NCBI GenBank assembly: GCA_947172415.1
Contig: OX359195.1
Span: 3,571,501-3,635,500 of the forward strand
Direction: 5' to 3'
DNA: 64,000 bases
Source: Chondrosia reniformis
Taxonomy: Eukaryota > Porifera > Demospongiae > Chondrillida > Chondrillidae
The translations under genes and the position numbers were made by a program. This document shows positions 1-58,429 of the stretch, piece after piece; position 1 is the stretch's first letter; every line of letters starts with the position of its first letter. The notes beneath the pieces are model-generated. The model made no database searches and was not told where the DNA came from. It saw nothing but the letters and a program-made list of their open reading frames with translations.

Positions 1-2886
1 AACAACATAAAACTAGTAAATACAACTAGTACATACAACTGGTAAATACAGATTGTTACTAGTACATACAATTAGTACATACAACTATTACATACAGCTA
101 GTTCATACAACTATAAAGTACTTACAACTAGTTAATAGTATATACACATAGTACATAAAACTAGTACATACAACTAGTAACTACAACTAGTAAATATAAC
201 TAGTACGTACAACCATTACACACAACTAGTACATAAAACTAGTACATATAACTACATACAACTAGTACATACAACTAGTAAATACTGATTGTTACTAGTA
301 CATACAATTAGTACATACAACTATTACATACAGCTAGTTCATACAACTATAAAGTACTTACAACTAGTTAATAGTATATACACATAGTACATAAAACTAG
401 TACATACAACTAGTAACTACAACTAGTAAATATAACTAGTACGTACAACTATTACACACAACTAGTACATAAAACTAGTACATATAACTACATACAACTA
501 GTACATACAACTAGTAAATACAGATTGTTACTAGTACATACACCTAGTATATACAACTAGTACTAACAAAAAAGTAGATATAACTAGTTCATACAACAAC
601 TTACTAGTACATACAACTAGTACATACAATTAGCACATACAACTAGTACATACAACTATTACATACCGCTAGTACATACAACTAGTACATATAGCTAGTA
701 CATCAACTACTAACTAGTACATACAACTTATACATACAACTAGTAAATACAACAAGTTCATACAACTAGTACAAACAACTAGTACATACAACTAGTACAT
801 AAAACTAGTTATTAGTACATAAACCTAGTAAAAATAACTGCATACAACTAGCACTAACTTCTAGTACATACACCTAAGACACGCAGATAGTTACTAGCAC
901 ATAAAACCAGTACATACAAGTAGTTTATACAACAAGTCCATATAACTAGTACATATGACTAGTTACTAGTACATATATACAACTAGTATATACAACTAGT
1001 TCCATTATATACAACTAGTTTTTAGTACATACAACTAGTACGTACAACTAGTGCATGCTTCTAGTTGCTAGTACAAAGTATGAGTACATACATCTAGTTC
1101 ATACAACTAGTACACACAACTAGTACATTAAACTAGTAGATATAATTAGTACATAAAACTAGTAAATACAACAAGTAAATATAGCCCCTCCATACATATA
1201 TAACTAGTACATACATATAAAAATTACATAAAACTAGTAGATACAAGAAGTACATATAACTATATAGTATTTACAACTATTTACTCATATATACAACTAG
1301 TATATACAATTAGTACTTACAACTGTACATACAAAAATTACCCACAACTAGTACATACAAGTAGTACATATAACTAAACTAGTTCAAATACCTACTACAT
1401 ACAACTAGTACATACAGATAGTTACTAGTACATACAACAAGTCCATAACACTTCTAATTACAACTAGTACATAAAACTAGTACATACAACTAGTACATAT
1501 ATACAACCAGTACATATAATTAGTTCATACAACTACTTACTAGATACATAAAACTAGTACATTCAATTAGTACATACAACAAGTTCATCAACTGTTACAT
1601 ACAGCTAGTACATACAACTAGTACATATAACTAGTTCATCAACTACTTACTAGTACATACAACTAGAACATACAACCTGTATATACAACTATAAAGTACA
1701 TACAACTAGTACTACAACTAGGACATAGAACTAGTTCATATAACCAGTACATATAAGTAGCACATATAACTAGTTCATACACATATAACTAGTACATATT
1801 ATATAGTACATAAAACTAGAAAATACTACTAGAACTACAACTAGTACATAAAACTAGTACATACAACTAGTACGAATAACCAGTACATCCACATAAAACT
1901 AATACATGTATCTGGTATAGACACCTAGACTACATACCACTAGAAACTAGTACATACAGCTAGTACATATAACTAGTACATACAACGAGTACATAAAACC
2001 AGTATATACACATATAACTAGTACATATAAACAGTGCATAAAACTAGAACATACTACTAGTACATTCAACTACTAAATACAACTAGTACATATGACAAGT
2101 CCATAAAACCAGTAGATACAACAAGTACAAATAGCTATTGCATACAACTACTTACTAGTACATACAACTAGTAAATACTATTAGTGCATACAACTAGTTA
2201 ATACAACTAGTTCATACCGCTAGTACATACTACTGGTACATATAACTAGTACATACAACTACTAATTAGAACATATATACAACTAGGACATACAACAAGT
2301 ACATACAACTTGTACACCCAACGGGTACATACAAAGGGTACATACAACTAATGCATACAACTAGTCCATAAAAATAGTACATACAATTAGTACATACAAC
2401 TAGTACATACAACAAGTTACTAGTACATATAACTAGTACCTAAAACTAGTAACTAAAAGTAATAAATATAACTAGTACATGCAAAAATTACACACAACTG
2501 GTATATACAAGTACTACATACAACTAGTACATACAACTAGTACAGTAAGTAGTACATAGAACAAGTACATATAACCAGTACATAAAACTTGCACATTCAA
2601 CTAGTACATACTTCTAGTACATACAAGTAGTAAATACCGATTGTTACTAGTAGTACATACAACTAGTACATACAACTAGTAAACACTACTAGTACATACA
2701 ATTGGGACATACAACTAGTACATACAACTAGTACACACAACAATTACACACAACTAGCACATACAAATAGTAAATACAACTTGAATCTTGGATATACAGC
2801 TAAACTCTACATAGTACCTACAAGGACAACAAAGGACAAGAACCTACAATTTGTACATACAATTGGTACATACAACTAGCACATAC
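1..2886. repeat. 13-bp minisatellite array, block 1
   Basis: Tandem, degenerate copies of a unit close to ACATACAACTAGT (contains the SpeI site ACTAGT). The first part has a higher-order period of 236 bp: the landmark GATTGTTACTAGTACATAC recurs near 51, 287 and (partly) 523. No gene is visible. A segment at about 788-1,170 reappears at about 8,180-8,575 on the far side of LINE copy 1, so blocks have been copied over distance. Confidence 0.95.
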
Positions 2887-2924
2887 TTGAAAAACAAAAG
2901 CCTTAACGGAGAACCTTGTTACTT

Positions 2925-2948
2925 CTTGCCTTAGTGTACTAAGGCAAG
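2925..2948 (-). other. 3' UTR palindromic hairpin, LINE copy 1
   Basis: Ten-base perfect stem CTTGCCTTAG / CTAAGGCAAG with loop TGTA, about 40 nt from the 3' end of the element. The same hairpin is at 35,410-35,433 and 58,199-58,222 and, with mismatches, near 9,192-9,216. In R2-type LINEs the 3' UTR structure is what the RT recognises; that role here is inferred. Confidence 0.7.
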
Positions 2949-3155
2949 GAGTATCTGGCTTGGACAACCCTCAGTCAGTTATGTTTTCCTTTCTTTGGGT
3001 TTTTAGCCAGAAGCCTCGGCTTTTCCTCCTTCCGACAGCAGCAGACGGGTGCACGTCGGGCCAAAGTTGACCGTCATAATAGGAGGGAGTACCTCCATAC
3101 ACCAATCCACCACTGCTTTCCAGAGGTCGACAGGCAAGGACTGGGACAGGACTAC

Positions 3156-3551
3156 TTATCGTCCAGGCCCCAATCCCTCAACAGATAGATGTCGCCTCAA
3201 TATCCTCACAGCCGAACAGAGAACAGTTCTCTGCATGGCTCTCATCACTTCTACTGCACTTTTTGACAGCTTTGGAATTCCCCTAAGGTCTTCCAGGAGC
3301 GTGTCCACTGTCCCCAAAGCACCAATTATCATCGGGACTACCTTAATTCGGTAGCCCCTAAATTGTTTCCTCATATCAGCTGCCAGCTTCTGGTACTTTT
3401 GGAACTTCTCTTGCCATCTTCCATTAATATTGCTGTCAGTAGGAACTGACATCTCAATAATGAAGATGGACTTACTTAGCCGATCCTCAACCACTAAGTC
3501 TGGCCTTCTTTCTGTCATTTCATCATCTGTAGGGATACTAGGATCCCACAA
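3156..3551 (-). pseudogene. LINE copy 1 ORF, restriction-like endonuclease end
   Basis: The last 131 codons of the element ORF, out of frame with the part upstream because of the telomeric patch. It carries the PD-(D/E)xK-type signature: R-R-P-D near residues 15-18 and I-E-M about 14 residues later, followed by a conserved K-x-x-K-Y segment. In RLE LINEs this domain nicks the target DNA. Nearly identical sequence ends copies 3 and 4, which supports the domain boundary. Confidence 0.85.
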
Positions 3552-4855
3552 GATTTTGACAGCCCTAACCCTAACCCTAATTCATATTCTTTCAACAGTC
3601 TCCACAACACTATCAGTATTGCCCGGTCATGTCTCTCTTTGTAGAGAGAAAATCCCTTGGGCTCACACATGTTTAGTATGTGTTTAACCGTTTCCATAGC
3701 CTTGCCACATTCTCTGCACATTAGGAGGCTAGAATTCTTCAGAATCCTATTTTGGTACCACCTAGTGTGCAGCAAATCATCTTGGGCTGCGAGAATCAGA
3801 GCCTCAGTTTGAGGTCTGAGTCTCCCCTCAGAAAGCCACACATAAGACTCCCTATTTGTGACTTGTCTGTGGTATGAGCCCTGGTGAGACTTTTCGGCTA
3901 GGTTACTTTTTAACCTTTCAGTCTGAGCCTCCCGGAGCTCACGTGCCACTCTCCTCCATTCTCTTACACTATTTTGTGAGGGATCTGTCTTCAGCCACAT
4001 TTCCGGTTCTAGTTCTATTCCGTGGCTTCTCAGTATCAATCTGGCTTCTTTCAAGACAGTCCTCCTCTGCTTTGAGCACTCTAGCCACTTTTGGTGTTTA
4101 ACCACAACAGCTGTGAGTGGATCATTGGCAGTATGGAGGTATCTTGCCAGATTCACAACAGCCCTGTCGTGATCCAAAGGAAAACTACAGAGCCCTCTAC
4201 CACCTTGAGAGCGAGGCAAATTCACTCTTTCAATGGCAGAGTTATAGTGATGACACTGGTACTTTCTCATGATCTTTCTCACCATTCGGTCCAGTTTTGG
4301 AAGCTCACTTTGAGTCCACTTCAAAACTGGGTAAGAGTATCTCAATAGAGAGGCACACAACATGTTAGAGGCTTCTGCAGCATTCTTACCATTGAGGTGA
4401 GAGCCCCACACCTTGTGGAGTCTCCTCCTCAATTCGTTGATCAAGCAAGCTTTGACCTTGCTGTCATCTACCTCAAACAGTTGTTCTAGCCCTAGGTACT
4501 TATAAGTAGTACCTTTTTCAAGGCTCCTTATGGATTCTTCACTGCGTTCAGGGTTGTCTGGGCCAGCCAGAACTTTCCCCTTTTGCATGTGAGCTGTTCC
4601 ACACTTTCTCACTCCAAACCTCATGCCAATGGCATTTGAGGTTTTCTCCACACATTCCATGGCTTCCCTGAGTTTATCAGGCCCTCCAGCATATATCTTA
4701 AGGTCATCCATGTACAAAAAGTGTGACATGGTGTTCCTTTCCCCATCATGCCAGAGGGTATATCCCTTGGTTCTGTTAAGAACTTGGGATATGGGAGCTA
4801 TGGCCAGACAAAAGAGGAGTGGCGATAAGGAGTCTCCTTGGAAGAGTCCCCTGTT
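3515..4855 (-). pseudogene. LINE copy 1 ORF, second RT part through CCHC finger
   Basis: Same reading frame as the upstream segment, separated only by the nonsense codon. It holds GLFQGDSLSP, the YMDD active-site motif, the thumb and a long basic linker, then a CCHC finger (C-x2-C-x8-H-x4-C in the stretch starting CRECGKAME). Compared with copies 3 and 4 the frame runs normally to about 3,581. There, roughly 60 bp of coding sequence are replaced by exactly three CCCTAA units (3,563-3,580), read as a Leu-Gly run. The frame shifts and terminates at 3,515. The ATG at 4,729 is internal and unlikely to be a real start. Confidence 0.85.
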
Positions 4856-6859
4856 TTATTTAACAGGGGTGCTCCTAACCACCTTCCCTGCAGTCCTCAA
4901 CTCAAGCACAGTAGCCCAGTGTTTGGAGAAGAGCTCTATAGACCTCCTGATCCAACCTGGGCACTTGATGGTTTTTAGCACCTTCATCACCCACTTGTGA
5001 GGGACTCTGTCATATGCCTTCTCATAATCGATCCATGCCACACTAAGTGGCTTGCCCATAATTTTGGCATCTAGACCGATTGATTGATCCAGCAGTAGAC
5101 AGTCCACACAGCCCCACCTCCCTTTCCTCATGGCCCTTTGGGCCACAGGCAAAAGATCATTAGTGTAGGTGTAAGTGAGTAGTTCCGACGCAATGTATGC
5201 TGTGACAGCCTTGTACATTGTGTTGAGACACGCAATAGGTCGGTAGTTGGCCGCACTTTTCGGGTCACCCTTTTTGGGGATGAGTAGAGTGCGACCACTT
5301 GTAAGCCAGTCTGGGACTGACAGATCTCCGCTCACCACCCTCCGTAGTACATCTGCCAAGGCAGACTGTGCAGAGGGGAGTGCTTTCCACCAAAAAGTGT
5401 GGATACCATCCGGCCCAGGGGCAGACCAGCTTTTTGCCTTTTTCAAGGCCTTCCTCAGTTTGGTCTCATCAATGCTATCGGGACCTTCAGAGGAGGTTCT
5501 ACCCACCCTCTTTTTGGTTTCCTTTAGCCATTCTTTCACCCCTAGGTCGTCTTTGTTGACCTTACCAACAGTACCTACAATCTTTGTCCAAAAGTCCCTT
5601 ACTACCTCAATTAAGGGAGCTTCATTGGAGGTTGGAACATGGCCATTCATCCGGAACTTCCTTTGGGTATTCCAAAGGTGGTTTTGTTCCTGGAATTTCC
5701 TGCGTTCAGCCGATCTTCGCTCTTGTAGGGTCCAGACCCTGAGTTTCCCCAGTGTCTGTTCCCGAGCTCTGATCAGCACCTTCAGGTTTAATGAATGGAA
5801 CTCCCTCCTAAGCTTTCTTCGGAGTACTTTCTGGCGTTTGGTCATAGGATTATTATTCTGTTGACGCACTATTTCCACATCCAACCAGGCAAGCAGTCTT
5901 CTAAACCTAAGGCCCTTGGCCTTCCTGTCACTTATGTGACCTTCCTGTCTCTTACTACCCTTCTGATTGTCCGATTTCCTTCCCTGGTTGCATGGCTGCG
6001 ATTCGTTGGTTGTTTTTCCCCTCACAGCCATAGCAACAGAGTAGACCAGGCAGTTCAGCTGCCAGGCCGACCTAGGGCCTTCCTGCCACTCTTTCTCCAC
6101 CCAATCATTGACCTCCTGGAGCAGTGCCGTATCAACATGGTTGAACCGCACCCCCCCACAGGGTTTTCTACCAGAGAAATCTCCAGGTTTCTTTCGGAGA
6201 CAGGCATCTTTTTCTTTGCCTAAAAGTTGCATCAGATGATCATTGCCACTTGTCCTGGGACTGGGATGATCATGTGTAGGAGTTTCAACAGGGACTGCAG
6301 GCAGCTCACCATTTTGTTCAGTCCTAGCCTGAACTTGGTTAAGCTCCCCCTGTCCCTGGGCTCCCACACCTTCCTCCACAGTCCCAGTTAGGGTGGCTAC
6401 ACCACAAGAGTTAGGTTCCACAAGGTTTAGTCTCGAGAGACCTTGACCTCTTCGGATTCTACTAAGTCTTGTAGTTAGTGCTACCTTTGTGGTTTTATGG
6501 TCTGGCATTGCAGCATTCCAAGCCTGGTACAACCGCTCGGCATACCCCTTTTCCATGGGCTTACTTTCTCGGTAGAGCTCCATGAGGATATTATCCCTCT
6601 GAAGGTTCCAGATCACCCCTTGGATCCTTCTCCTTCTAGAGGCACCTTGCGGTGCATCATTAACCAAATCTAAATCTCGGCTACCCGTTACTTGCAGTAC
6701 TCCGTCTCCTACCAAGCTCCTTTTGGCTTGGAAGGCAAGGGTTCGACTGGTCTGAGGCAAATGTGGGTATTTGCTCAGCCATTCCCGCTCTAAACGCTTT
6801 TGATAGCCACCTCTTTTGGGTTCAGATCGCTCAAAGCAATCAATTAGTGCCCTAACCAT
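4856..6859 (-). pseudogene. LINE copy 1 ORF, N-terminal and first RT part (667 codons)
   Basis: Start ATG at 6,859 is the first after an in-frame TGA four codons upstream. Two related segments of about 45 residues lie at aa 4-49 and 91-136 (each with a G-Y-x-x-R-L core followed by W), looking like a duplicated nucleic-acid-binding module. A basic, low-complexity region follows, then the RT fingers and palm from about aa 480 (APGPDG) with NYRPIACL near 539 and the metal-binding motif IDYEKAYD near 610. The frame ends at TAA where the nearly identical copy 3 has TAT (Tyr), just before the GLFQGDSLSP motif. The frame continues unchanged after that stop, so this is one substitution. The product alone would lack the YMDD catalytic site. 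Confidence 0.88.
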
Positions 6860-7209
6860 TTCCTCGGTTCATAGGGCTGGTTGGCCTGTCACGGGGACCG
6901 AAGAAGGGTTATTACATTCAGGTACATTTACCTGTGAGGCACCAGTGGAATCACCTATTCTGGTTGACCCAGGGTTTTCTTCACCACTGGTGCACCTAGG
7001 CCACAGCCTGTCTTGAAAATTTTCATTGTCATGACGTAACGTAACCCAGTGAAACTGCCAGACGGGGGGTTAGCCCATACTGGCAGGGAGGCTGATTTAG
7101 CCACAGGATGCCACATGAAGGGCTAAGCACCCTGCTCCGTCGGGGGGTTGAACTGCACAATACCCATCCTCTTGTCAGCTCGGAACCACAGCCTCCAATT
7201 CCCACGACA
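6860..7209 (-). other. 5' UTR of LINE copy 1, strongly self-complementary
   Basis: Non-coding leader. Pairings visible on the plus strand: GGAGGCTG 7,087-7,094 with CAGCCTCC 7,189-7,196; CTGCCAG 7,055-7,061 with CTGGCAG 7,080-7,086; TTAGCC 7,097-7,102 with GGCTAA 7,121-7,126. Many R2-group LINEs start with an HDV-like self-cleaving ribozyme; I see a long-range helix but cannot confirm that fold. Confidence 0.5.
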
Positions 7210-7217
7210 GCACATAC

Positions 7218-9152
7218 AACTAATAAATACAACTAGTTACACACAGCTAGCATATATAACTAGTACATGCACATACAACTAGTACCTTTAAAGAGTACAT
7301 ACAACTAGTACATACCACTCATGCATAATACTAGTACATACCACTAGAAACTAGTACATAAAGCTAGTACACTCAACTAGTACATATATAGTACATACAC
7401 CTGGTGTATACAAACAACTAGTACATACAATTAGTACATAACTAGTATATACAACAACTACATACAACTAGTATAGACACTTCGTACATACAACTACTAC
7501 ATAGAACTACTATATACAACTACTATAATTAGTAAATATAAATAGTACTAGTACATACAACTAGTACATACAACTAGTACATACAATTAGTAGATAGAAT
7601 TAGTACAAACAGCTAGTAAATAGACCTAGTAAATAAAATTAGTACATAAAACTAGTACATACAACTAGTACATACAACTAGTACATATAACTAGTACAAA
7701 AAAATAGCTAGTACATACTACTTCTAGAACTAGAACCTATAACTATCACACACAGCTAGTGCATACAACTAGTAAATATAACTAGTACATACAACTAGTA
7801 CATATACCTAATAAATACATATACTAATAAGTACATATAAATAGTTCATACATCTAGTACATACAACTAGTATATACAATTACTACCCACAACATATATA
7901 TACATGTAGTACATGCAACTACTACACATCACTAGTACATACAACTAGTACATGCAACTAGTACATATAACTGGTACATAGAAGGAGTACTTAAAACTAT
8001 AACATACAACTAGTACTTACAGCTGGCACATATCCAGTACATACATCTAGTACATACAATAAGTACAAAAAATTAATTCATAAAACTACCATATACACCT
8101 AGGGTACATACACGAATGTACCTGGCACTAGAACATACACAAAGAACATACACCCAGTTCATACAACAAGTACATACAACTAGTACATACAACTAGTACA
8201 TAAAACTAGTTATTAGTACATAAACCTATTAAAAATAACTGCATACAACTAGCACTAACTTCTAGTACATACACCTAAGACACGCAGATAGTTACTAGTA
8301 CATAAAACCAGTACATACAAGTAGTTTATACCATATAACTAGTACATATGACTAGTTACTAGTACATATATACAACTAGTATATACAACTAGTTCCATTA
8401 TATACAACTAGTTTTTAGTACATACAACTAGTACGTACAACTAGTGCATGCTTCTAGTTGCTAGTTCAAAGTATGAGTACATACATCTAGTTCATACAAC
8501 TAGTACACACAACTAGTACACACAACTAGTACATTAAACTAGTAGATATAATTAGTACATAAAACTAGTAAATACAATACATAAAACAATTACACACAAC
8601 TAGAGGAAACAACTAGTACATATACTAGTACATACAACTAGGACATACAAATATAACATACACCCAGTTCATACAACAAGTACATACAACTAGTACATAC
8701 AACTAGTAAATATAAATAGAACATACAAACATTACACACAACTAGAGGAAACAACTAGTACATATACTAGTACATGCAATTAGTACATACAGCTAGTCCG
8801 TACAACTAGTAAATACAACTAGTACATACATCTACTAAAACAACCAGTCCTTTCAACTGGTACATAAAATAAGTGCATACATCTAGTACATACAAGTAGT
8901 TCATAAAACTAATACAAAAAATTAAAACATACAACTAGTACATACAATTAGTACATACACCCAATACATAAAAGTAGTGCATACAACTTGTACAAACACA
9001 TGTAAAGAGTACATATAAAGAGTACATACACATAGTACATACAACTAGGAAATATAAGTATTACATATAAATTATACATACAGCTAGAACATACAACCGG
9101 TACATACAACTTGTAACTAATATATACAACTAGTACATACAACTAGTACATA
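7218..9152. repeat. 13-bp minisatellite array, block 2
   Basis: Same satellite as block 1 and in the same orientation. It contains the duplicate (8,180-8,575) of the 788-1,170 segment and stretches repeated again near 13,970-15,300 (for example around the phrase ACACCTGGTGTATACAAAC at 7,398). No genes. Confidence 0.95.
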
Positions 9153-9835
9153 GTTAACAAACAAAAGCCTTAATGGAGAACCTTGTTACTGCTGGTCTTA
9201 GTTTACTAAGGCAAGTAGTGTCTGACTTGGACATCCCTCAGTCAGTCATGTTTTCCCTTGTTTGGGTTTTTAGCCTGAAGCTTCGGCTTTGCCTCCTTCC
9301 GGCAGCAGCAGACAGATGCACTTCAGGACAAAGTTGACCTCCATATACCAATCCACCACTATTTTCCAGTGGTCAAAAGGCAAGGACTGGGACAGGACTA
9401 CTTATCATCGAGGCCCCTATCCCTCAACAGCTAGATGTTTCCTCCATATCCTTACAGCTGAAGAGAAAACAGCTTCTACTGCACTTTTGACAGCTTTGGA
9501 ATTCCCCTAAAGGTCTTCCAGGAGAGTCTCCACAGTCCCAAAAGCTCCAATTATCATCACAACCACCTTAATTCGGTAGCCCCTAAATTGTTTCCTCATC
9601 TCAGCCGACAGATTATGGTTCCTTTGCGACGTCTGTTGTCATCTTCCATTAAGATTAAGTGAGTAGTTCTGATACAGTGCATGCTGTAACAGCCTTGTAC
9701 ATTGTGTTGGGACATGTAATTGGTCGGTAGTTGGCCGCACGTTTCGGTTCATCCTTTTTGGGGATGAGTAGAGTGCGACCCCTTCTGACAGATCTCTGTT
9801 CACCACCCTCCATAGTACATCTGCCAAGAAATCAA
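9153..9835 (-). mobile_element. RLE-type LINE, copy 2, diverged and internally deleted
   Basis: Bases 9,153 to about 9,655 match the 3' UTR and endonuclease end of copy 1 (2,887 to about 3,425). The match then jumps to the RT region equivalent to about 5,168-5,365. About 1.7 kb between them is missing. The copy is visibly more diverged than copies 1, 3 and 4, has small indels, and its reading frame is destroyed. Its 3' end meets the satellite at the same unit position as the other copies. Confidence 0.85.
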
Positions 9836-18352: not shown

Positions 18353-19493
18353 ACATGTACAAACAAGTACTACATATAACTAATACATACAACTAGTACA
18401 TAGAACTATTACATACAACTAGGATATACAACTAGTACTACAACTAGTACATAGAACTAGCACATACAATTAGTACATACCCAGTACATACAATTAGTAC
18501 ATACAAGTATTACATTCAAATAGAACATACAACTAGTTCCTACAACTAGTATATATTACTAGTACTAGAACATTCAACTCATAAATACAACATGTAAAAA
18601 ACGTTGTACATATAAATAATACATACAACTAGTACATACATCTAGTACTACTTAGATTATATAAAACTACTACAAAAACTAGTACTTTAAAATTGTTTAA
18701 TAAACTGGAAATACAACTAGTACATAGAACTATTACATACAACTAGTATGTACAACTATTAAAACAGCTAGTAAATAGAAATAGCACATACAACTAGTAC
18801 TACAACTAGTACATACAACTAGTACATACAACGAGTATATACAACTAGTACCTACAACTGGTACCTACAATTAGAAACTACTTTATACAACTAGTACATA
18901 TAACTAGTATATACAAGTAGTACCTACAACTAGTAAATATAACTTGTACTAGTACATACAATCGGTACATACAACAAGTACACACAACAAGTACATAACC
19001 AGTACACACAACTAGTGCATAGAACTAGTACTTACAACTAGTAGATATCACTTGTGCCTACAATTAATACATATTACTAGAACATACACATATAAATAGT
19101 AAATATAAATAATAAATATAAAGAGTACATACAACTAGTACATACATTTAGTACATTAAAGTAGAAATACACCCACATCTTTGGACTATTACTAACAACT
19201 AGTACATACATCTAGGACTCACAACTAGTACTTTAATTAGTAAATAGAATTAGTAAAAACAACTGGTGCATACAACTAGTACATACAACTAGTACATATA
19301 GTTAGAACATACAACTGGTACATAACTAGTACATACAATTAATACATACAACTAGTACATACAACTGGTACATAACTAGAAGATATAACTAGTACATACA
19401 ACTAATACATATAATTAGTACATACAACTCTTACATTCAACTAGTACATACAACTAGTACCTACAACATGTACAAACAAGTCCTACAGAGAAA
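18353..19493. repeat. 13-bp minisatellite array, block 6
   Basis: Same satellite, plus orientation, degenerate; ends at the TA target of the Tigger element. Confidence 0.95.
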
Positions 19494-19926
19494 TACAGTC
19501 GAACCTCCCATAACGGACCCGCTGAGAAGCGGACAGCCTCCCTTCAACGGACAGGCTCTTTGGTACGGATTGAAATCGGCATAGTTGTAATATTAAACCA
19601 ACCTCCGAGAAGCGGACACTTCTGGATTCCGGACAACGGACAAGATTCGAACTCCCAACGTGATTTTTCAATACAAAATTACCTCTGAATAACGGACACC
19701 CAGGAAAGTTCACCCTTATAATGACACGTGGCTCGAACGTGTCACATGTCTTACGGTAACTATATAGGAACGGGTGTCGTTTACCGCTTCCAGTTTTAAT
19801 GGTGCAAGATGTGTTAAAATCATATTACGCTTGCACAGGAACGGATGCACGTTCACCTACTGGTGACTCTACCTAAATCTCTATCCAGAAACTGGACGCC
19901 GGTACCTCTATGTTTGAAATAAATCG

Positions 19927-38374: not shown

Positions 38375-38719
38375 ACAATAATTTCTAGTTTAAAAATTCG
38401 TCGGTCTGCCGCCCCCCGAATTAATTCAAACTACTCTGCCGCATTGTTGGGTTTAATATATATATTCGTAATACCAACGATTCAGGACGCTTAAGTGTCC
38501 TGAACTTTATAAATAACGATGGAAAAGTGTCGTAAACTAAAGCTTCCTGAATGCCGCCATTTGTAAAAACGATGTGTTGAAGTATAAATTAAGTGTTACA
38601 ATAGTTTTGTATGAACCCGTATTATATATATATATAGAAATATCTTTCCGTAACATGAAGCCGTACAACAAAATCGGCTAATGAAAACAATATAAGGGGC
38701 TGCCTGAGGCAGTCCCTCA
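38375..38719. mobile_element. Orphan AT-rich insert with two strong hairpins
   Basis: 345 bp of unique sequence starting with an A-run. TTCAGGAC/GTCCTGAA forms a near-perfect palindrome at 38,481-38,504. At the right end a hairpin (38,697-38,718, CTGCCT/AGGCAG core) is followed within a few bases by CTAG and T. That is reminiscent of a Helitron 3' end, but CTAG also belongs to the satellite unit and no TC start is evident. No coding frame. Family unknown. Confidence 0.45.
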
Positions 38720-42284: not shown

Positions 42285-44432
42285 CTAGTACATATAAATA
42301 GGGCATTTAACTGTTATATATAAATATAACATAAAAGTGGTACATACAACAAATACCTATAAATAGTACATACAACAAGTACATACAAACAGTACATACC
42401 ACAAGTACATATAACTAGTATATATCTAGTATATGCAACTAGTACATAAAACTAGGACGTACAACTAGGATATATAACTAGTACATACAACAAGTACATA
42501 TTACAAGTACAATAAAACTAGAATATACAACTAGGACATACAACTAGTACCTACAACTGGTACATTTAACTAGTACATATAACTAGTGATTACCATTAGT
42601 ACCTACAACTAGTACATACAACTAGTACATACAACTAGTACATACAACAGGTTCATACAAGTAGTACATACAACTCATACATACAACTTGTACATAGAAC
42701 TAGTAATGATAACTAGAACATACACAAATAAATTGTACATATAAATAGTACATTTAACTAGTTCATACAACTAGTACATACAACTAGCACATATAACTGG
42801 AACATACACATAACTATAACCTAAACTTAGGACATACAAATAGTACATGCAACTAGTACATGTAACTAGTACATACAACTAGATCATACAACTAGTACAT
42901 ACACCTAGTACATACAACTAGTACATACAACTAGTACATAAACCTAGTACATAAACCTAGTACATACAACTAGTACATACAACTAGCACATACAGCTAGT
43001 TCATACAATTAGTACATAAAACTAGTACATACAACTATTGCATAGATTTAGTACATACAACTAGTACTTACAACTTGTAAATATAATTATTACTAGTACA
43101 TAAAACTACTTCATACAACTAGTAAAGAGTTTATACAACTAGTAAATACAACTAGTACATACAACTAGTAACTGGTACATACAACTAGGACATACAACTA
43201 GTACATACAAATTGTACATACAACTAGTATATATAACTATATAGTACTATATCATACAACTAGTACATACAACTAGTAAATAGAATTTGTACTTACAACT
43301 AGTTCAAACAACTACAACATATAGGAATTACCTACCTAGTACCTTGTAGAGCTATATAGTACTAGAACCTACAACTAGTATATACAGCTAGTACATGCAG
43401 CTAGTTCACATAACTAGTACAAACAACTAATACATATAACTAGTAAATACATATATAACTAGTATATATAAAGAGTACATACAACTAGTAAATACCACTA
43501 GTAGATACGACTTGCATATAATACTAGTGCTACAACTAGTACATAGAACTAGTGGGTAAAACTATATAGAACGTATAACTAGTACATACAACTAGTACAT
43601 ACAACTACTTCTACAACTAGTACATAGAACTAGTACATATTACTGGTACATACAACTCGTGCATTTTTAGAATCTTGAATAACTAGTACTAGAAAATACA
43701 ACTAGAACTATACAAGTAGTACATACAACTAGTACACACGACTAGTATTTACAACTAGTACATAAAACTAGTACATACAACTGGTACATAACTACTACAT
43801 ACAACTAGTAAATACAAATATAGTACTAGTTTATACAATTAGTAGATACAACTAGTACATACAACTAGTACATTAAATTAGTACACACAAGTAGTACATA
43901 CAACTAGTTCATATAACTGGTACATACAACTAGTACATACAACTCGAACCTTCCTAGAACCTTGTATTACTAATACTAGAACCTACAACTAGTGGATAGC
44001 TAGTGCATACAACTAGTACATACAACTGGTACATATCTAGTACATACCAGTGGTACATACAACTAGTACACACAATAAGGACATACAACTAGTACATACA
44101 ACTAGTACATACACTTGTACATACAACTAGTACATAAAACTAGTACACAAAACTGGTATATATAACTAGTACATACAAATAGAATATATGACCAGTACAT
44201 ACAACTAGTACATTCAACTACTTCTAAAACTAGTACATACAACTCGTACAAATAACTAGTGCATATAGCTGGTCCATACAACTAGAACACACAACTAGTT
44301 CATACAACTTTTAACTACTACATATATCTATGACATACAACTAGGACACAAAAGTAGTACATACAACTGGTACACACGACTAGTATTTACAACTAGCACC
44401 TACAACTAGTACATACAACTAGTAAATACAAA
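42285..44432. repeat. 13-bp minisatellite array, block 12
   Basis: Satellite; from about 43,858 it belongs to the left unit of a 2.2-kb tandem duplication. Confidence 0.95.
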
Positions 44433-44669
44433 GAAATATTAAAAATTTTCTACAAAAATAGTGAAGATATAGGGATGGCACAAAAAGTAGAGAAACAAGA
44501 ACGGGATGTTACACAGTGAAGTATTAGCTATACATGAATCCTACAAACAAGGGTGTTGTATGATTCATGCATAGCTAATACTTCACTGTGAAACATCCCT
44601 TTCTTGTTTCTCTACTTTTTGTGCCATCCCTACATCTTCACTATTTTTGTAGAAAATTTTTAATATTTC
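44433..44669. repeat. Hairpin A: 108-bp arms, 21-nt loop
   Basis: Arms 44,433-44,540 and 44,562-44,669 are complementary with four mismatches. The loop 44,541-44,561 reads CTACAAACAAGGGTGTTGTA plus T. Confidence 0.95.
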
Positions 44670-44918
44670 TAGTTTCTGTACTTTTTATGGATATTGGGCT
44701 AGGAATTACAATTTTATACCATTTTGGATTCGCAATCTTCAACTGATTATGACGTCATTAAAATGGCAAAATTATTGAGGCCTTGACTCTGAGGCCATGA
44801 AAACCGTCATACTCAATAATAGCGTTATCGCTCTCGCTTCTACAAAAGAATACAGATCGGAAAATTTGCAGTAGTTCCGTTTAACAATTAGTCCAAAAGC
44901 TTATATAGTTTTTTAGTT

Positions 44919-45011
44919 ATGGCTGACGAAGAAGAAGAAGATGAAGAAGACGAAAATGACAATTTTTTAAGTTTGTTATTTCGCCAGCCGGACATATTCG
45001 CTTGCCTTTAA
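44919..45011 (+). CDS. Short acidic open frame, unrecognised
   Basis: 30 codons from ATG 44,919: an M-A-D start followed by a Glu/Asp run, then F-L-S-L-L-F-R-Q-P-D-I-F. The run is a GAA microsatellite. In insert copy B the frame stops after nine codons and the GAA run is expanded. Probably a relic or chance frame; no function can be proposed. Confidence 0.2.
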   Translation: MADEEEEDEEDENDNFLSLLFRQPDIFACL

Positions 45012-45172: not shown

Positions 45173-46639
45173 AGTACTAGTTCATTCAATTAGTACATAC
45201 AACTATTACATACAACTAGTACATAAAACCAGTACACACAAGTAGCACATACAACTAGTTCATACAACCAGTACAAACACAAAGTACATACAACTCGTAC
45301 GTTCCTAGAACCTCGTATAGCTAGTACTAGAACCTACAATTAGTGCATAGCTAGTACATACAATTAGTACATACAACTGCTCTATACAACTAGTTCCTAC
45401 AACTTGTAAATATAACTAGTACTAGTAGATACATCCAGTACACTGAACTAGTACATGCAATAGTACATATAACTAGTACACAAAATTATTACATATAACT
45501 AGTACATGTATATGCTTGTTGTATATACTTGAAGTACATACAACAAGTATATACAACTCATACATACAACTAGGATTTAAAACACGTAATTACAATTAGT
45601 ACATCCAATTAGTACTACAACTTTTATATAGAACTAGTACATATACCTAGTACATACAACTAAGACATTTAACTAGTAATTAATACATAAAACTAGTACT
45701 TACAACTAGTACATATAACTAGTACCTATAACAAGTGATTACCACTAGAAGCTACAACTAATAAATACGACTAGTACATACAAACAGTACATACATACAG
45801 TACATACAACTAGTATATAACTAGTATATCACTAGTATAAGCAACTAGTGCCTATAACTAGTACATACAACCAGTACATATTACTAGTACATACAGCTAG
45901 AATATACAAATAGTATGTACAGCTAGTACCTACAACTAGTACCTATAACTAGTACCTATAATTAGTGATCACCACTAGTACATACAACTAGTACATATAA
46001 CTAGTTCATACAACTAGTACAGACAAGTCGTACATACAACTTGTACATACAACTAGTACATTAAATTAGTACACACAAGTAGTACATACAACTAGTTCAT
46101 ATAACTGGTACATACAACTAGTACATACAACTCGAACCTTCCTAGAACCTTGTATTACTAATACTAGAACCTACAACTAGTGGATAGCTAGTGCATACAA
46201 CTAGTACATACAACTGGTACATATCTAGTACATACCAGTGGTACATACAACTAGTACACACAATAAGGACATACAACTAGTACATACAACTAGTACATAC
46301 ACTTGTACATACAACTAGTACATAAAACTAGTACACAAAACTGGTATATATAACTAGCACATACAAATAGAATATACGACCAGTACATACAACTAGTAAT
46401 TAGTACATACAACTAGTACATTCAACTACTTCTAAAACTAGTACATACAACTCTTACAAATAACTAGTACAATAGCTGGTCCATACAACTAGAACATACA
46501 ATTAGTTCATACAACTTCTAACTACTACATATATCTATGACATACAACTAGGACACAAAAGTAGTACATACAACTGGTACACACGACTAGTATTTACAAC
46601 TAGCACCTACAACTAGTACATACAACTAGTAAATACAAA
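45173..46639. repeat. 13-bp minisatellite array, block 13
   Basis: Satellite between the two hairpin inserts; no gene. Confidence 0.95.
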
Positions 46640-46876
46640 GAAATATTAAACATTTTCTACAAAAATAGTGAAGATATAGGGATGGCATAAAAAGTAGAGA
46701 AACAAGAAAGGGATGTTTCACAGTGAAGTATTAGCTATGCATGAATCATACAACACCCTTGTTTGTAGGATTCATGTATAGCTAATACTTCACTGTGTAA
46801 CATCCCTTTCTTGTTTCTCTACTTTTTGTGCCATCCCTACATCTTCACTATTTTTGTAGAAAATTTTTAATATTTC
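46640..46876. repeat. Hairpin B: 108-bp arms, 21-nt loop in reverse orientation
   Basis: Arms 46,640-46,747 and 46,769-46,876. The loop 46,748-46,768 is the exact reverse complement of loop A. Arm markers near the loop (TTTCAC, ATGCATG) that are on the right in hairpin A are on the left here, whereas the outer marker GATATAGGG stays left in both. Confidence 0.95.
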
Positions 46877-47410
46877 TAGTTTCTGTACTTTTTATGGATA
46901 TTGGGCTAGGAATTACAATTTTATACCATTTTGGATTCGCAATCTTCGACTGATTATGACGTCATTAAAATGGCAAAATTATTGAGGCCCTGACTCTGGG
47001 GCCATGAAAACCGTCATACTCAATAATAGCGTTATCGCTCTCGCTTCTACAAAAGAATACATCACGGAAAATTTGCAGTAGTTTCGTTTAACAATTAGTC
47101 CAATAGCTTATATAGTTTTTTAGTTATGGCTGACAAAGAAGAAGAAGATGAATAAGAAGAAGAAGAAGAAGAAGAATATGAAGAAGACGAAAATGGCAAT
47201 TTTTTAAGTTCGTTATTTCGCCAGCTGGACATATTCGCTTGCCTTTAATGTCTATTTAAAGTATGTATAGTGTATATTTAGCCAGACATAGCCTTGTTTT
47301 GTCGCTTTTCGGCCTATTTCGGGATTTTGCCCCTATACCAATGTATGGGAAAAATGAAAAAACCGCGTCATCCCTACATAGGGAATACTACCTTACTCCC
47401 TGATTATATA
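46640..47410 (+). mobile_element. Non-satellite insert, copy B
   Basis: Copy of 44,433-45,172, with the same hairpin and tail, an expanded GAA microsatellite near 47,150-47,180 and scattered substitutions. The central part of its hairpin is inverted relative to copy A. Confidence 0.65.
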
Positions 47411-50400: not shown

Positions 50401-53236
50401 ACATATAACTAGTACATACAATTAGTAAATACAACTAGTATCTAGTACATAAAACTAGTACATACAACTAGTACATACAACTAGTACATACAGTTAGTAC
50501 ATACAACTTTTACATACAACTAGTAACTACAACTAGTAAATATAACTAGTACATACAAGAATTACACACAAGTATTACACACAAGTAGTACATATAACTA
50601 CATACAACTAGTACATACAACTAGTATTTACAAGTCGTATATACAGATAGTTAATTGTACATAACAGTAGTACTTACAACTAGTACGTACAACTAGTACA
50701 TATATCTAGTACATACATTGAGTTACTAGTACATTCAACTAGGACATACAACTAGTACATACAACTAGTACACACAATTAGTTCATACAATTAGTTCATA
50801 CTATTAGTTACCAGTACATACAAGTTTTACACACAACTAGTACATACAACTAGTAACTACAACTAGTGAATAAAACTAATACATACAAAAATTTTGCACA
50901 ACTAGTACATACAACTAGTACATATAACTACCACTAGTCCATACAATTAGTACATACAACTAATACATACAGCTAGTACATATATTAAGTACAAACAGCT
51001 ATTTACTAGTACGTACAAACAGTACATACATACAACTAGTTTCTAGTACATACAACTAGTTTCTAATACATACAACTTATACATACAACTAGTACATACA
51101 ACTAGTATTACAACTGGTAAATATAGCTAGTACATACAACAATAACACAAAATTAGTACATACAACTGGTACATATAACTACATACAAATAGTACATACA
51201 ACTAGTACATACAACTAGTACATACAACTAGGTTATAAAGAGAGTTACTAGTACATACCACTGGTACACACAACTAGCACATACAACTAGTACATAAAAC
51301 TAGTACATATAACCAGTACATATAACTTGCACATACAACTAGTACATACAGTTAGTACATACAACTAGTTACTAATACGTACCCCTAGTACCTACTACTA
51401 ATACATTACACTAGTCACTACAAGTACTAAATATAACTAGTAAATACAACAATTACGCACAACTAGTACATACAACTAGTACATATAACTACAACTAGAG
51501 CAAACAACTAGTACAAAAAACTAGTAAATTCAGATTGTTACTAGTGCATATAACTAATACATACAATCAGTACATACAACTAGTTAGTAGTTTATACAAC
51601 TAGTACACACAACTAGTAACTACAAGTAGTAAACATAACTAGTACATACAACAATTACACGCAATTTGTACATACAACAACTACATATAACTAGTACATA
51701 CAACTAGTACATACAACTTGTACATACAACTTGTTCATACAACTAGTAACTACAACTAGTAAATATAACTAGTACATACAAGAATTACACACAACTATTA
51801 AATACAAGTAGTACATATAACTGCATACAACTAGTACATACAACTAGTATTTACAAGTCGTACATACAGATAGTTAATTGTACATAAAAGTAGTACACAC
51901 AACTAGTACGTACAACTAGTACATATATCTAGTACATACAGTGAGTTACTAGTTCATACAACTAGTACATAAAACTAGCATTGAGTACATACGACTTCAT
52001 CCAACTAGTACATACAACAACTTCATACAACTTGTACATATAACTGTTACTTACAACTAGTACATACAACTAGTATTTACAACTAGTACATACAACTAGT
52101 ACACACAATTAGTACATACAACTATTATTTACAACTAGTATTTACAACTACTACATACAACTAGTACACACAACTAGTACATATAACTAGTACATACAAT
52201 TATGACACACAACTAGTACATATTACTAGTTCATATAACTACTACACAAAACTAGTCCATATAATTAGAACATACAACTAGTACATACAACTAGTACACA
52301 AAACTAGTCCATAAAACTAGAACATACAACTAGTACACAAAACTAGTCCATAAAACTAGAACATACAACTAGAACATACAACTAGTACACACAACTAGTA
52401 CATACAACTAGTACACAAAACTATTCCACACAACTAGTTCACACAACTAGTACATACAACTAGTACACACAACTAGTACATAAAACTAGCATTGAGTACA
52501 TACGAGTTCATCCAACTAGTACATACAACAACTTCATACAACTTGTACATATAACTGTTACTTACAACTAGTACATACAACTAGTATTTACAACTAGTAC
52601 ATACAACTAGTACATACAACTAGAACTACAAATATTATATAGAACTAGTTAATAGAATGAGAACATAAAACTAGTACATTCAACTAGTAACCAGTACATA
52701 CAACTAATATATACGATTAGTGCGTAAACTAGTAAATATAACTTGTTCTTGTACATACAACTAGGGCAAAAAACCTAGTACATGCAAATAGAAAGGAGAA
52801 GTTACAAATAGTACATACAATTTACACATAGAACTAGTACATAGGATGAGTACATAAAACTAGTATGTACAACTAGTACTTACAACTAGTTCATATAACT
52901 AGTTCATATAACTAGTTCATACAACTAGTACATACAAGCAGAAACTAGTGCATACAACTAGTACATACAACTAATACATAAAACTAGTACATAGAACTAG
53001 TACGTACAACTAGTACATACAGCTGGTACATACAACTAGTACATACACCTCTATAGTACATTCAACTAGTACACAGAACTAGTGAGAAGTACATATAACA
53101 AGTAAATACAACTAGTACATACAACTATTACATTAAACTAGTACATATAACTATTGCATGCAACCAGTACACACAACTAGTACATACAACTAATACATAC
53201 AACTAGTACATACAGTTACTACACCCAACTAGTTCA
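47411..53236. repeat. 13-bp minisatellite array, block 14
   Basis: 5.8 kb of satellite. From about 48.8 kb on, a local higher-order pattern with AACTACAACTAGTAAATATA and ACAATTACACACAACTAG phrases recurs, and segments around 50.6 and 51.8 kb and around 51.98 and 52.49 kb are near copies. No gene. Confidence 0.95.
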
Positions 53237-53329
53237 ATCAATCAATCTGCACCATAGCTTATCTCCTATGCAGGAGGTCGCCACTATATACATACAATAA
53301 TTAATACTACAATTGAGTTTATACTATAG

Positions 53330-54007
53330 CTAGAAATTGTCTATCCATTTTTTTCTCGGTCTTCCTCTTGGCCTTTTCCCTACAATTTCCTCAGTGTACA
53401 CCTTCTTCACTAGTCTGTCATCTTCCATCTTCTCCAACTTCTCTCTCCATGTTCTTTGTTTCCTATTCACTTTCTCCATCCCGTTCTCTTGCCTCACTGC
53501 CTCCCTCACATCTGCATTCCTTACTCTGTCAATCCTTGACACTCCTTCTACTCTTCTCAGATAAACCATTTCTGTTGTCCCTAGTCTGCTCTCGTACCTC
53601 TTCATCATTGTCCATGTTTCACTGCTATACAGCATGGTCGGTATCACCATTGCATTATACACCCTCATCTTCGTGGCTTTCTTCAACTCCCTTCTTTCTA
53701 GCACCTCCTTCCTCATAACTCCTATCACTCTGGCCGCTGCACCCACTCTGTGTTCAATTTCCTCTTCACATGTCCCATCTGCACTCAGGATAGCTCCTAA
53801 GTATTTCATGTTTTGCACTTGTTCTATCTCTTCCCCATCCACACACACTTTGCAGTCTTCTCCTTGCTTACTAACCATCATCACTTTAGTTTTGCCCCAA
53901 TGTATCTTCATTCCCCAATTACTCATTGCCTTCTTTAACTCCCTCAAATTTGTCTCCATGTCCTCCTTCCTCTCTGTTAGTAGCATCACGTCATCCGCAA
54001 ACAGCAC
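53330..54007 (-). pseudogene. RTE LINE: second half of RT and C-terminus
   Basis: 225 codons beginning inside the RT at L-F-A-D-D-V (the catalytic FADD box, aa 2-6), then the thumb with N-x-x-K-T-K and M-K-Y-L-G-A-I-L-S-A-D-G, the Y-S-S-E-T-W region, and the basic end G-K-R-P-R-G-R-P-R-K-K-W typical of RTE-like LINEs. It is in another frame than the upstream half. Roughly 60 residues expected between L-Y-K-K and L-F-A-D-D are missing. Confidence 0.86.
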
Positions 54008-54018
54008 TATACACTATA

Positions 54019-56013
54019 CTACTTCTTGTACAATGATCTAATGGCCCTCAGCAGTCTTCCCTTCACACCATATTCCCCTAACACATTCCACAGCTTATCT
54101 CTACCCACCCTATTGTAGGCCTTTTCCAAATCCACACATGCCACCACCATCTTCTTGTTCTTCTCTAACATCTTCTCACTCATTTGTCTTATGTTAAGGA
54201 GCTTGACCGTGCAACTTCTACCCTTTCTAAAACCCCCCTGAGCTTCAAGTACCTTGCTTTCCGTCACATCTCTTGTCCTTTCATCCAGTATCCTCGCATA
54301 GACCTTACTTGGGATGCTGAGGAGGCTTATGCCCCGGTAGTTCTCACATTTCAACTTGCTTCCTTTCTTATGCACTGGCACAATTACTGCTCGTTGCCAG
54401 TCTTCTGGAACTTGCCCATTTTCCCATGCCAGACACATTATCCTATGAAGCCACTTCACCACTACCGTCCTTCCAGCCTTCAACATCTCAGCACTAATCC
54501 CACATATACCTGGTGACTTCCCATTTTTCAGCTTCGATATGTCTACTTCTACTTCCTCAGCTATAATAGGTACCCTCTCCACCTCTTCTTCAAGTTGCTC
54601 CTCCCTGTCTAGTTGGTTATCACTCTGGCCCTGAGTACCCTCTTGCAATAGATCACTAAAATTTGCCTTCCATCTTTTACAAATTCCTTCATCATCTACT
54701 ATCACCTGGCCACTTTCACCACATATTTTCCCCGTTACATCTGCTCTACTTTCACTATGTGTGCGGACCCTACTCCAGAACCTTTTCTGGTTCTTTTGGA
54801 AGTCATCTTGTAATGATCTGCCAAGCTCAACCCATTCCTCATTTCTTGCATGTCTCACCACTCTTTTTGCTTCCTTTTTTGCCAGTTGGTATTTCTCCTT
54901 TGCCCCTGGTGTCTGTTGCTGCAACCATTTCAAATAAGCCACCTTCTTATTCTTTATTGCTTGCTTCACATTTTCATTCCACCATCTAGTTATTTTCTTA
55001 GCATTTCTGCACCGTTGCATCCCGCACACCTCAGCTACTGTTTCCAATATATTCTTCTTAAACTCTCTCCAGACTTCCTCTACATTGCTGCTTTTCCAGT
55101 GTCTTGCCCTATCTAGCTTCCTTTCTAACCTCAAACTGAATATCCATCTCACTCCTTCCTCTTTTAGTTTCCATCTCTTTAGGTACTGCCTTCTGTATTC
55201 TCCTTGTTTTACCTCTCCCCTTTTGAGGTGCCTTTTTGTCAACTTCACCTTCATGACTACAAGGTGATGGTCGCTTCCAATTTCTGCTCCTCGGATAACT
55301 CTCACATCATTTACAGTTCGCTTCATATCTCCTCTAACCAAGAAGTAATCTATTATGGACTGCAAAACTCTTCCTGGGCATCTCCATGTGAACTTGTGTA
55401 TATTCTTATGCTCAAAAAGGGTGTTCATTATCCTTAGATCATTCTCTCCACAGAAATTCAGGAGCCTTCTCCCGCTGTCATTCTCTACTTCTTCCCCATG
55501 TTTCCCCTTAACGTCACTCCATCTCCCCACATTGTTTCCAACTCTTGCATTAAAGTCGCCCATCACCACCACCCTATCTCCTCTTTGTGTTCTGGCTATC
55601 ACTTCCTGCAGCCATGCATAGAACTCTTCCTTCGTGTCGTTATCCTTGTCATCTGTTGGTGCGTATACTTGCACTATCGTTATTCCTTCTCCCTCGATCT
55701 TCAGCCTTACCATCATGCACCTTTCATTTACGCATCTCCAACTTCTGATGCAATCTACCCATCGCTCCACCACCACTATGCCTACACCACCTCTGGCTCT
55801 GCCTTCCTTCACCCCCGCGTACATATAGCTAGCACCGTCAATTACCTTCATGCTATTCCCCCTTCCTTTCGTCTCGCTAAGGCCAAGTATATCTAGATTG
55901 TATCTTTTCATCTCCCGAATCAATTCTTCTTCCTTGTTCCTAGCAGATCTAACGTTCCAGGTACCTAATCTATGCACTTTATCTTTATCTTCATTCTTCG
56001 TCAGCGATAGCAT
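54019..56013 (-). pseudogene. RTE LINE: AP endonuclease and first half of RT
   Basis: 664 codons from an ATG at 56,013. Endonuclease: G-T-W-N-V-R (N20), S-E-T-K (E47), V-Y-A-P-T (116-120), M-G-D-F-N-A (151-156) and S-D-H-H (247-250), the catalytic set of the exonuclease III-like fold. A basic linker of about 200 residues follows. RT begins with G-K-S-P-G-I-x-G-I-S-A-E-M (family consensus has D where this copy has C), N-Y-R-G-I-S-L-L-S, Q-G-G-F-R-K-G-R-S-C and V-D-L-E-K-A-Y-N-R-V. The frame stops at 54,019 right after R-S-L-Y-K-K, where the deletion begins. Confidence 0.88.
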
Positions 56014-56102
56014 CTTAGTTTCTACGGTGGGTTGTCAAATCAAAGACAGGAATCCCAACGCGAAGGCTCAAAACGCCGACTTTTTCACACCTACACAACA
56101 AT

Positions 56103-58174
56103 ACATACAACTAGTACATACAGTTACTACACACAACTAGTTATGAGTACATAAATGTAGTACATACAATTAGTACAAACAACAATTTATGAGTACATAA
56201 AAACTAATGCATACAACTAATACATACAACTACTACATACAACTAGAACATAAATCTAGTACATACAACTAGTATATACATATAGTAGATACAAATACTA
56301 AATATACCTAGTACCAGTTCATACAAATACTACAAACAACTAGTATCTATGACTAGTAAATAAAAGTAGTATTAGTCCATACAACTAAAACGTACAACTG
56401 TCACATTCAGCTAGTAATGTGTACATATAATTAGTAAATACATCTAGTATATGCAACTAGTACATACAACTATTAATTACAAGTAATACATACACCTACT
56501 ACATAAAACTAGTACATACACATATAACTAGTACATATAAATAGTACTTACAACTACTAAATACAACTAGTACATACAAGTGGTACATAACTAGTACATA
56601 CAACTAGTAAATATAATTAGTACATACAAATAGTACAAACAGATAGTACATACAACTTGTACTTACCTAGTACCCATTATAACTAGTATTATAAAGAACC
56701 TATAACTATTACATAGCGCCAGAACATATATACAACTAGTGCATACAAGTAGTACTTACAACGCGTACATATAACTAATGCATACAACTAGTACATACAC
56801 ATAGTAAGTACATGTAGTACGTACAACTACTACACACAACTAGTACATACAAATAGTACATACAACTTGGACCTACCTAGTACCTAGTATAACTAGGACT
56901 AGAACCTACAACCAGTACATACAACTAGTACATAGAACTAGAACATACGGCTAGTATATACACCTAGTACACACAACTACTACATATAACTAGTGCATAC
57001 ACATATACCTAGTACATATAAATGGTACATACAACTAGTACATACAACCAGTACACACAACTAGCACATATAACTAGTACACACAATTACTACATTAAAC
57101 TAGTGCATTCACAGAAAACTAGCACATATAAATAGTATATACAATTAGAACATAAACTAGAACCTACAAGTGGTACATTAAACTAGTACATACAACTAGA
57201 AGCTACTTAGTACGTAGTACAACTGGTACCAGAACCTACAACTAGTATCTACACCTAGTCATACAACTAGTATCGAGTACATACAACTAGTACAAACAAC
57301 TAGTACATACAAATAGTCCATACAACTAGTACATACAACTAGTACATACAACTAGTACCTAATTAGTACCTAGTGTAACTAGTACTAGAACCTTCAACTA
57401 GTACTTACTACTAGTACATACAGTTAATACATATAAATAGTGCATAAAACAAGTACATACAACAATAACACACAATTAATACATACAAATAGTATATACA
57501 ACTTGTGTCTAGTACATTCAACTAAAATCTTCCTAGTACCTAGTATAACTAGTACTAGAACCTCTAGCTTGTACATACAACTAGTACATATAACTACTTT
57601 ATACAACTAGTATATACATGTAGTACACACAACTACTACATATAACTAGCACATACACATATCCCTAGTACATATAAATAGTACATACAACTAGTACATA
57701 CAACTAGTACATATATACAAAAAACTTGAATATACAATTAGTATATAGAACTAGTTAAAACGATTAGTACATACAACTAGTACCTACCTAATACTTTGTT
57801 ATAACTTGTACTTGAACATACAACTAGTACACACAACCAGTAAATATAACTAGTACACACAATTACTACATTAAACTAGTACATATAAAACTATATACAA
57901 CTACAACATAACTAGAACATTATAACAATTAGTACATAGAACTAGTACATACAACTAGTACATACAACTTGTATTGAGTACACAAAACTAGTACAAACAA
58001 CTAGTACATACAACTAGTGCGTACAACTAGAACCAACCAAGTACATAGTATTAATTAGTACTAGTACTTACAACTAGTATATACAACTAGTCCATATAAA
58101 TGGTGCATACAACTAGTACATACAACTAGTACATATAACTAGTACAAACAACTAGTATTAACGCCTAGTTCACA
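56103..58174. repeat. 13-bp minisatellite array, block 15
   Basis: Satellite with many CTAGTACCTAGTATAACTAG-like variant units; no gene. Confidence 0.95.
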
Positions 58175-58429
58175 CCTTTACGGAGAACCTTGTTACTTCT
58201 TGCCTTAGTTTACTAAGGCAAGGAGTATCTGGCTTGGACAACCCTCTGTCAGTTATGTTTTCCTTTCTTTGGGTTTTTAGCCAGAAGCCTCGGCTTTGCC
58301 TCCTTCAGGCAGCAGCAGACAGATGTGCATGGGGCCAAAGTTGACCGTCATAATAGGAGGGAGTACCTCCATACACCAATCCACCCCTGCTTTCCAGAGG
58401 TCGACAGGCAAGGACTGGGACAGGACTAC

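Follow-up and report, generated by a model that had tools for sequence, protein, structure and literature searches.

The window analysed here, the whole 64-kb stretch of contig OX359195.1 between positions 3,571,501 and 3,635,500, carries a 13-bp satellite broken by mobile elements, among them four copies of an R2-like long interspersed nuclear element (LINE) that all join the satellite at the same point of its unit. The DNA (34% G+C, no ambiguous bases) is eukaryotic, judged by its LINEs, a Penelope-like element and a Tigger-like transposon. ARAGORN found no transfer RNAs (tRNAs) in the window, and Rfam at gathering thresholds gave no matches, hence no ribosomal RNA (rRNA) match and, at the LINE 5' end, no ribozyme of a known family. 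The satellite is degenerate; about 36.8 kb of it could be phased in the forward (+) orientation, and a further ~1.07 kb at 15813-16881 is inverted. Unit positions are numbered C1 T2 A3 G4 T5 A6 C7 A8 T9 A10 C11 A12 A13, and the LINE copies are called A to D.

1-60889, + strand: host satellite, unit ACATACAACTAGT, the array broken by mobile elements
2887-7212, - strand: LINE copy A, at 4.3 kb the longest; its 5' boundary lies somewhere from 7208 to 7212
9154-9828, - strand: LINE copy B, ~81% identical to A; 0.67 kb long, with a 5' truncation and an internal deletion
35340-37813, - strand: LINE copy C, with a 5' truncation; differs from A by 0.75%
58175-59781, - strand: LINE copy D, with a 5' truncation; differs from A and C by ~3%

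A BLAST search of the window with copies A and C (E up to 1e-3) recovered these four copies of one R2-like family, all on the minus strand, and beyond them only short matches of the LINE's own hairpin. With gaps excluded, 18 of 2392 columns distinguish A from C; for C against D the count is 50 of 1604, and for A against D 44 of 1554. At the 3' end, A and B terminate in ...TTTTTCAA or ...TTTGTTAA, C continues for 32 nt in an A-rich tail absent from A and B, and D lacks the last 15 nt (14 counting the ambiguous base at 58175). The first-pass annotation had noted differences of truncation, tail and divergence between the copies, and this is right: 5' truncations, the +32 and -15 nt ends, and a divergence that is 0.75% between A and C but leaves B only ~81% identical to A. 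No intact copy of the LINE was seen in the window; A has one in-frame stop in its reverse transcriptase (RT) region and a disrupted C-terminus. In the same copy a telomere-type (CCCTAA)3 at 3563-3580 replaces a piece of the open reading frame near the 3' end that is present in C, and breaks the frame, as if telomere sequence had been used to heal a break. The 3' untranslated region holds a hairpin (2925-2948) with a perfect 11-bp stem, CTTGCCTTAGT..ACTAAGGCAAG, conserved in A, C and D but altered in part in B; it is a candidate RT recognition element. Searches for relatives of the LINE protein gave no pattern match in a viral contig collection and 17 pattern matches, none confirmed, in a genome contig collection.

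The open frame of copy C (35641-37821, 726 aa, its last 8 bases being satellite) spans an RT, a CCHC motif and a probable restriction-like endonuclease (RLE). The frame matched RVT_1 with an E value of 3.7e-28, and in NCBIfam the sole match, to a group II RT, scored far below cut-off. Among solved structures (PDB), the nearest relatives of the RT were R2 proteins, with five R2 or R2-like sequences at E 2.6e-18 to 6.3e-12. Downstream of the RT, the motif CREC-x7-H-x4-C aligns with R2 chain 9nl2, the CCHC part alone being weak (E 0.17). The C-terminus, read by eye, contains RRPDLVV...FIIEMSV, a PD...E motif and thus a candidate PD-(D/E)xK endonuclease, and the C-terminal segment matched PF15518, a viral cap-snatching endonuclease profile, weakly and below cut-off (E 0.0023). 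This match is of interest because R2 endonucleases structurally resemble cap-snatching endonucleases, according to an excerpt of PMC7650587; judged from these motifs, the C-terminus is probably an RLE. The N-terminal part of copy A, upstream of the RT, had no Pfam match above cut-off (its 202 aa gave only DUF802, E 0.16, below cut-off), and no R2-type zinc finger was seen by eye in the N-terminal frame. Two similar stretches noticed there by eye, KRGGYQKRLEREW... and EKGYAERLYQAW..., could be putative DNA-binding helices.

At its 3' end every copy follows unit position A10, CTAGNNCANA, with a one-base ambiguity at C11, where A, C and D have a 1-bp shared C and B has a G. The junctions are the following.

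2876-2886, + strand: site of 3' junction A, ...CTAGCACATA^C, junction 2885/2886
9143-9153, + strand: site of 3' junction B, ...CTAGTACATA^G, junction 9152/9153
35329-35339, + strand: site of 3' junction C, ...CTAGGACATA^C, junction 35338/35339
58165-58175, + strand: site of 3' junction D, ...CTAGTTCACA^C, junction 58174/58175

Circular alignment to the unit gave a best end phase of 10 or 11 for 4/4 copies; for D the margin was narrow with the cut at 58174 (50.0 versus 49.5) and stood at 52.0 versus 49.5 with the cut at 58175. BLAST and circular alignment together therefore bear out, for 4/4, the earlier statement that four RLE-type LINE copies on the minus strand join the satellite after the same part of its unit. 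That three further copies should agree by chance had been called unlikely, and under a model of measured phase frequencies and random strand the probability is indeed 5.2e-5 for the exact phase, or 4.1e-4 if 10 or 11 is allowed. When A and B are counted as one kind of 3' end, giving three kinds in total and two further events, it rises to 1.4e-3 or 5.5e-3. All these values are optimistic, and the larger ones are fairer, because it was the regularity of the feature that drew attention to it. Since the LINE lies antisense to the satellite, the primer strand is the + strand of the window, 5'-CTAGNACATA^C.

The satellite flanks of the copies are no more alike than satellite in general. Across the six pairs of copies, 300-bp 3' flanks were 0.696-0.745 identical; 391 pairs of satellite sites drawn at random and in phase gave 0.721 +/- 0.025. 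The 5' flanks were 0.671-0.730 identical. The best matches elsewhere in the window to the flanks of A, B and D reached 75-85%, with no near-copy. A and C are not a copied locus, because the LINEs differ by only 0.75% yet their satellite flanks are at random-satellite identity, and a duplication would have given equally alike flanks. Copy C is moreover bracketed by a direct target duplication, and a related stretch of satellite lies elsewhere in the window.

34829-35339, + strand: left half of the direct target duplication around C, 511 bp, ending at the LINE 3' junction
37814-38259, + strand: right half of the direct target duplication around C, 446 bp, starting at the LINE 5' junction
27447-27577, + strand: paralogous satellite stretch without a LINE, 93% identical to 38246-38376 and uninterrupted

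Over 446 columns the two halves show 7 mismatches, 3 of which fall within the first 13 columns and 4 within the remaining 433, and there is one 65-bp gap (5 units). Their divergence is 1.6%, or 0.9% when the first 13 columns are set aside, which is comparable in magnitude to the A-C distance, and the halves are placed as a target-site duplication, the left ending at the 3' junction and the right starting at the 5' junction. The right half runs unbroken past 38259 through the insertion point and so preserves an empty site, ...TTTTCATGCAACTAGCACATA/CAACTACAAAATAC... (CTAGCACATA/CAACTACAAAATAC). The four copies are independent insertions, and the earlier view that they are not simply one duplicated locus holds, given flanks at background identity, unlike 3' ends and the separate target duplication of C. 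A target-specific LINE is recognised by independent copies whose 3' junctions share one position and strand, and 4/4 copies do so here. For a different insertion, of 342 bp at 38377-38718, an empty site is apparently preserved at 27576-27577.

The 5' junctions vary. In A the satellite resumes at or before A6, and AGCACATAC stands on both sides of the element as a likely target-site duplication of 7-9 bp, read by eye.

2878-2886, + strand: left copy of the likely target-site duplication of A
7209-7217, + strand: right copy of the likely target-site duplication of A

CACATA at unit positions 5-10 occurs in 46 of 2856 units. The 5' junction of C also lies at or before A6, with a four-base overlap, that of D lies at C11 without duplication, and in B the satellite returns after 12 nt of uncertain origin. 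We dropped an argument from the 13-bp register being restored across the insertion: any 5' junction can be read as a duplication or a deletion modulo 13. According to an excerpt of PMC5035012, R2 is strict in its first cut and variable in its second, and the pattern here is the R2 pattern, with the first nick fixed and the second cut loose.

The phase is set by the cut, because the 3' ends of C (+32 nt) and D (-15 nt) differ yet meet one unit position; annealing does not set it, because LINE and satellite overlap at the 3' junction by at most 1 bp. The likely mechanism is R2-like target-primed reverse transcription, primed from a fixed nick within the 13-bp unit. The endonuclease, together with the N-terminal region, would set the phase, and the satellite would be the natural genomic target of that endonuclease. 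As a whole, we consider it probable that the best explanation is an R2-like LINE with a CCHC motif and a probable RLE, combining a fixed 3' phase and strand, independent insertion, the empty site of C and variable 5' ends, in which the endonuclease would fix the phase and the satellite would serve as natural target.

The empty sites hint at recognition of more than one unit. All four share CTAG at -10 to -7, C at -4, A at -3 and A at -1, and CAACTA at +1 to +6, and position +7 is never G (A, C, C, C), whereas G stands there in 84% of 1833 in-register sites. This was the most surprising of 27 columns, with P = 0.0036 for the summed surprisal and 0.03 for a simple count. Consensus matches at the four sites exceeded those at other units over -10 to +6 (P = 0.034, post hoc) and over -4 to +6 (P = 0.012). 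C occupies unit position 5 at 2/4 sites (A and the empty site of C) versus 75 of 2856 units. The site tests were made after the sites were seen, and the +1 to +6 letters of A, B and D depend on the chosen flank join. The matches over -10 to +6 and the departure at +7 hint at a longer recognition site. That the LINE is a dedicated parasite of the 13-bp satellite, with a site longer than one unit composed of a normal unit followed by a unit without G4 (CTAGNACATA^CAACTAH), kept as R2 keeps 28S ribosomal DNA (rDNA), is a reading to which we give somewhat less than even weight.

Several points weigh against the explanation preferred here. The sample is four copies in one 64-kb window, and D and B are its poorer cases, the target of D matching 14/16 letters and B having the 12 nt of uncertain origin at its 5' junction. 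Four wider or one-sided windows showed no consensus excess (P 0.48-0.85, with P = 0.83 for -23 to +17 and P = 0.48 for -10 to +17), nor did the letters upstream of the cut alone (left flanks; P = 0.20 for 10 letters, P = 0.32 for 23). Structure prediction with AlphaFold gave a mean predicted local distance difference test (pLDDT) score of 42.5 for the N-terminal 202 aa and of 35.4 for the 726-aa RT-RLE frame, too poor for the models to be used, and the RLE fold is accordingly putative. Satellite makes up 69% of the non-LINE window, and the location of 4/4 copies within it is no significant enrichment (p = 0.23). Fixed phase alone is no proof of satellite specificity, because an endonuclease with a ~4-base preference would also strike one phase every time in any 13-bp satellite. 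The first-pass proposal that the LINE is specific for the minisatellite accordingly survives in part: one position, one strand, independent events and an R2-like RT, CCHC motif and probable RLE speak for it, and a preference for satellite as such did not emerge. From the sequence, specificity of the LINE for the satellite is plausible.

Other elements share the array. A LINE of the apurinic/apyrimidinic endonuclease (APE) type occupies 53228-56104 on the minus strand, with an Exo_endo_phos match and a GATT-type 3' tail. This single copy joins the satellite at phase 5/6 with a ~38-43 bp target duplication, assigned by eye (automatic alignment chose another stretch), and its different phase is a partial control for the phase of the R2-like LINE. 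A Penelope-like element at 29382-32186 has an RT and a weak GIY-YIG match and carries an inverted near-copy of its end (29382-30159 versus 32186-31417, 97.7%). A Tigger/pogo-like transposon at 19477-22344 combines a Tc5-type helix-turn-helix with DDE_1 and has inverted ends CAGTCGAACCTC...GAGGTTCGACTG adjoining TA.

The satellite has itself been rearranged, as seen in a self-comparison of the window that covered the best 70 of 200 pairs and part of a 500-pair list. The block at 15813-16881, the sole inverted one in the scan, consists of two tandem 496-bp segments (~95-97% identical) with forward arrays on either side. Satellite and an inserted element are duplicated together at 42996-44954 and 45177-47161 (84.5% overall, with stretches at 94-99%), and one satellite stretch recurs on either side of LINE copy A, at 755-1181 and 8156-8574, with 94-98% identity and away from the LINE junctions. 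At 60920-63903 the 13-bp satellite is replaced by another tandem array with a unit of ~22 bp, such as ATATATCCCATAATTTTTGCCA. In a viral contig collection no exact match to a 31-base satellite pattern was found, and none of the openly licensed papers searched contained the unit sequence in any of five rotations.

Four rival explanations were weighed. The strongest is a LINE with a short sequence preference, for a few bases around ATA^C or CTAG, that inserts genome-wide and meets satellite here merely as the commonest DNA. The satellite share of the window makes 4/4 unremarkable, the Tigger-like, Penelope-like and APE-type elements lie in the same satellite, the upstream letters alone are not enriched, and two R2 families have lost target specificity (PMC5035012, in excerpt). 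Set against this are the number of copies, four of the R2-like family versus one each of the three other coding families identified, the high number of -10 to +6 consensus matches, itself a post hoc result, and the departure at +7 in 4/4. We regard a short preference as a serious possibility, albeit on the doubtful side. A single ancestral insertion spread by satellite duplication, its phase inherited, would fit an array with many local duplications at 90-99%, including an insertion-bearing pair (44.4 and 46.6 kb). The repeated stretch that flanks copy A might also be taken in its favour, but it stops short of the LINE junctions; for copy B alone, ~80% identity is old enough for flanks to have been erased. 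The background identity of the flanks, the unlike 3' ends and the target duplication of C all count against such spread, which is contradicted for A versus C and D, and we reject it as very improbable.

The remaining two concern the origin of the junction itself. LINE RNA that reads through into satellite might anneal to any nicked satellite and recreate the phase of its parent junction; R2-like elements can reportedly be co-transcribed with their target, and A and B have the same LINE end. Such a memory of phase predicts identical LINE-satellite junctions in A, C and D, whereas C and D meet the same phase with ends that are 32 nt longer and 15 nt shorter, and we consider it improbable. Retrotransposons can also found tandem repeats (PMC2887409, in excerpt), and the satellite might have grown from the LINE tail, the junction being part of the element. 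Satellite lies on both sides of 4/4 copies, however, the empty site of C is satellite as it was before insertion, and C has 32 nt between LINE and satellite where D lacks 15 nt; we reject a tail origin as next to impossible. Insertion primed from a fixed nick in the unit by an R2-like LINE is the explanation we retain.

For an element of a known kind, a 13-bp satellite with a defined position inside it would represent a new target. Dong is an RLE LINE with a defined multicopy target. According to an excerpt of PMC4640811, RLE LINEs are mostly target-specific, for rRNA, small nuclear RNA (snRNA), tRNA or spliced-leader genes and some microsatellites, and Utopia, NeSL and R4 likewise have defined multicopy targets. 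The LINE described here differs from Utopia, NeSL, R4 and Dong, whose targets are snRNA, spliced-leader or rRNA genes or microsatellites. It resembles R2 and its relatives (28S rDNA; R8, R9) in its CCHC motif and in an RT nearest to R2 among solved structures, but it is unlike R2 proper, which is defined by insertion into 28S rRNA genes: all four copies are flanked by 13-bp satellite, and Rfam gave no match. Some HERO families, and Togen for (TG)n, are RLE LINEs in simple tandem repeats (the same excerpt of PMC4640811); the LINE here has instead a 13-bp unit with a defined position inside. YURE of Ciona is an RLE LINE found in a U2-derived satellite, but it is there only occasionally and its authors tie it to relatives that target U2 genes (PMC4640811, in part). 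MoTeR and FoTeR of fungi are RLE LINEs that sit in a short tandem repeat in one orientation (an excerpt of PMC12857005), and they differ in that their target is the telomeric repeat. Specificity of an RLE LINE for a 13-bp satellite was not reported among the matches listed from the openly licensed literature.

As tools and models for the targeted insertion of DNA, RLE LINEs that are naturally sequence-specific are rare. Copy C, with a long target duplication beside a preserved empty site, documents the looseness of the second cut next to the fixed first. If satellite targeting is true, the target of such a LINE, ~16 bp within a satellite that is short, abundant and non-genic, would be easy to test in vitro, and element and satellite could persist together without harm to genes.

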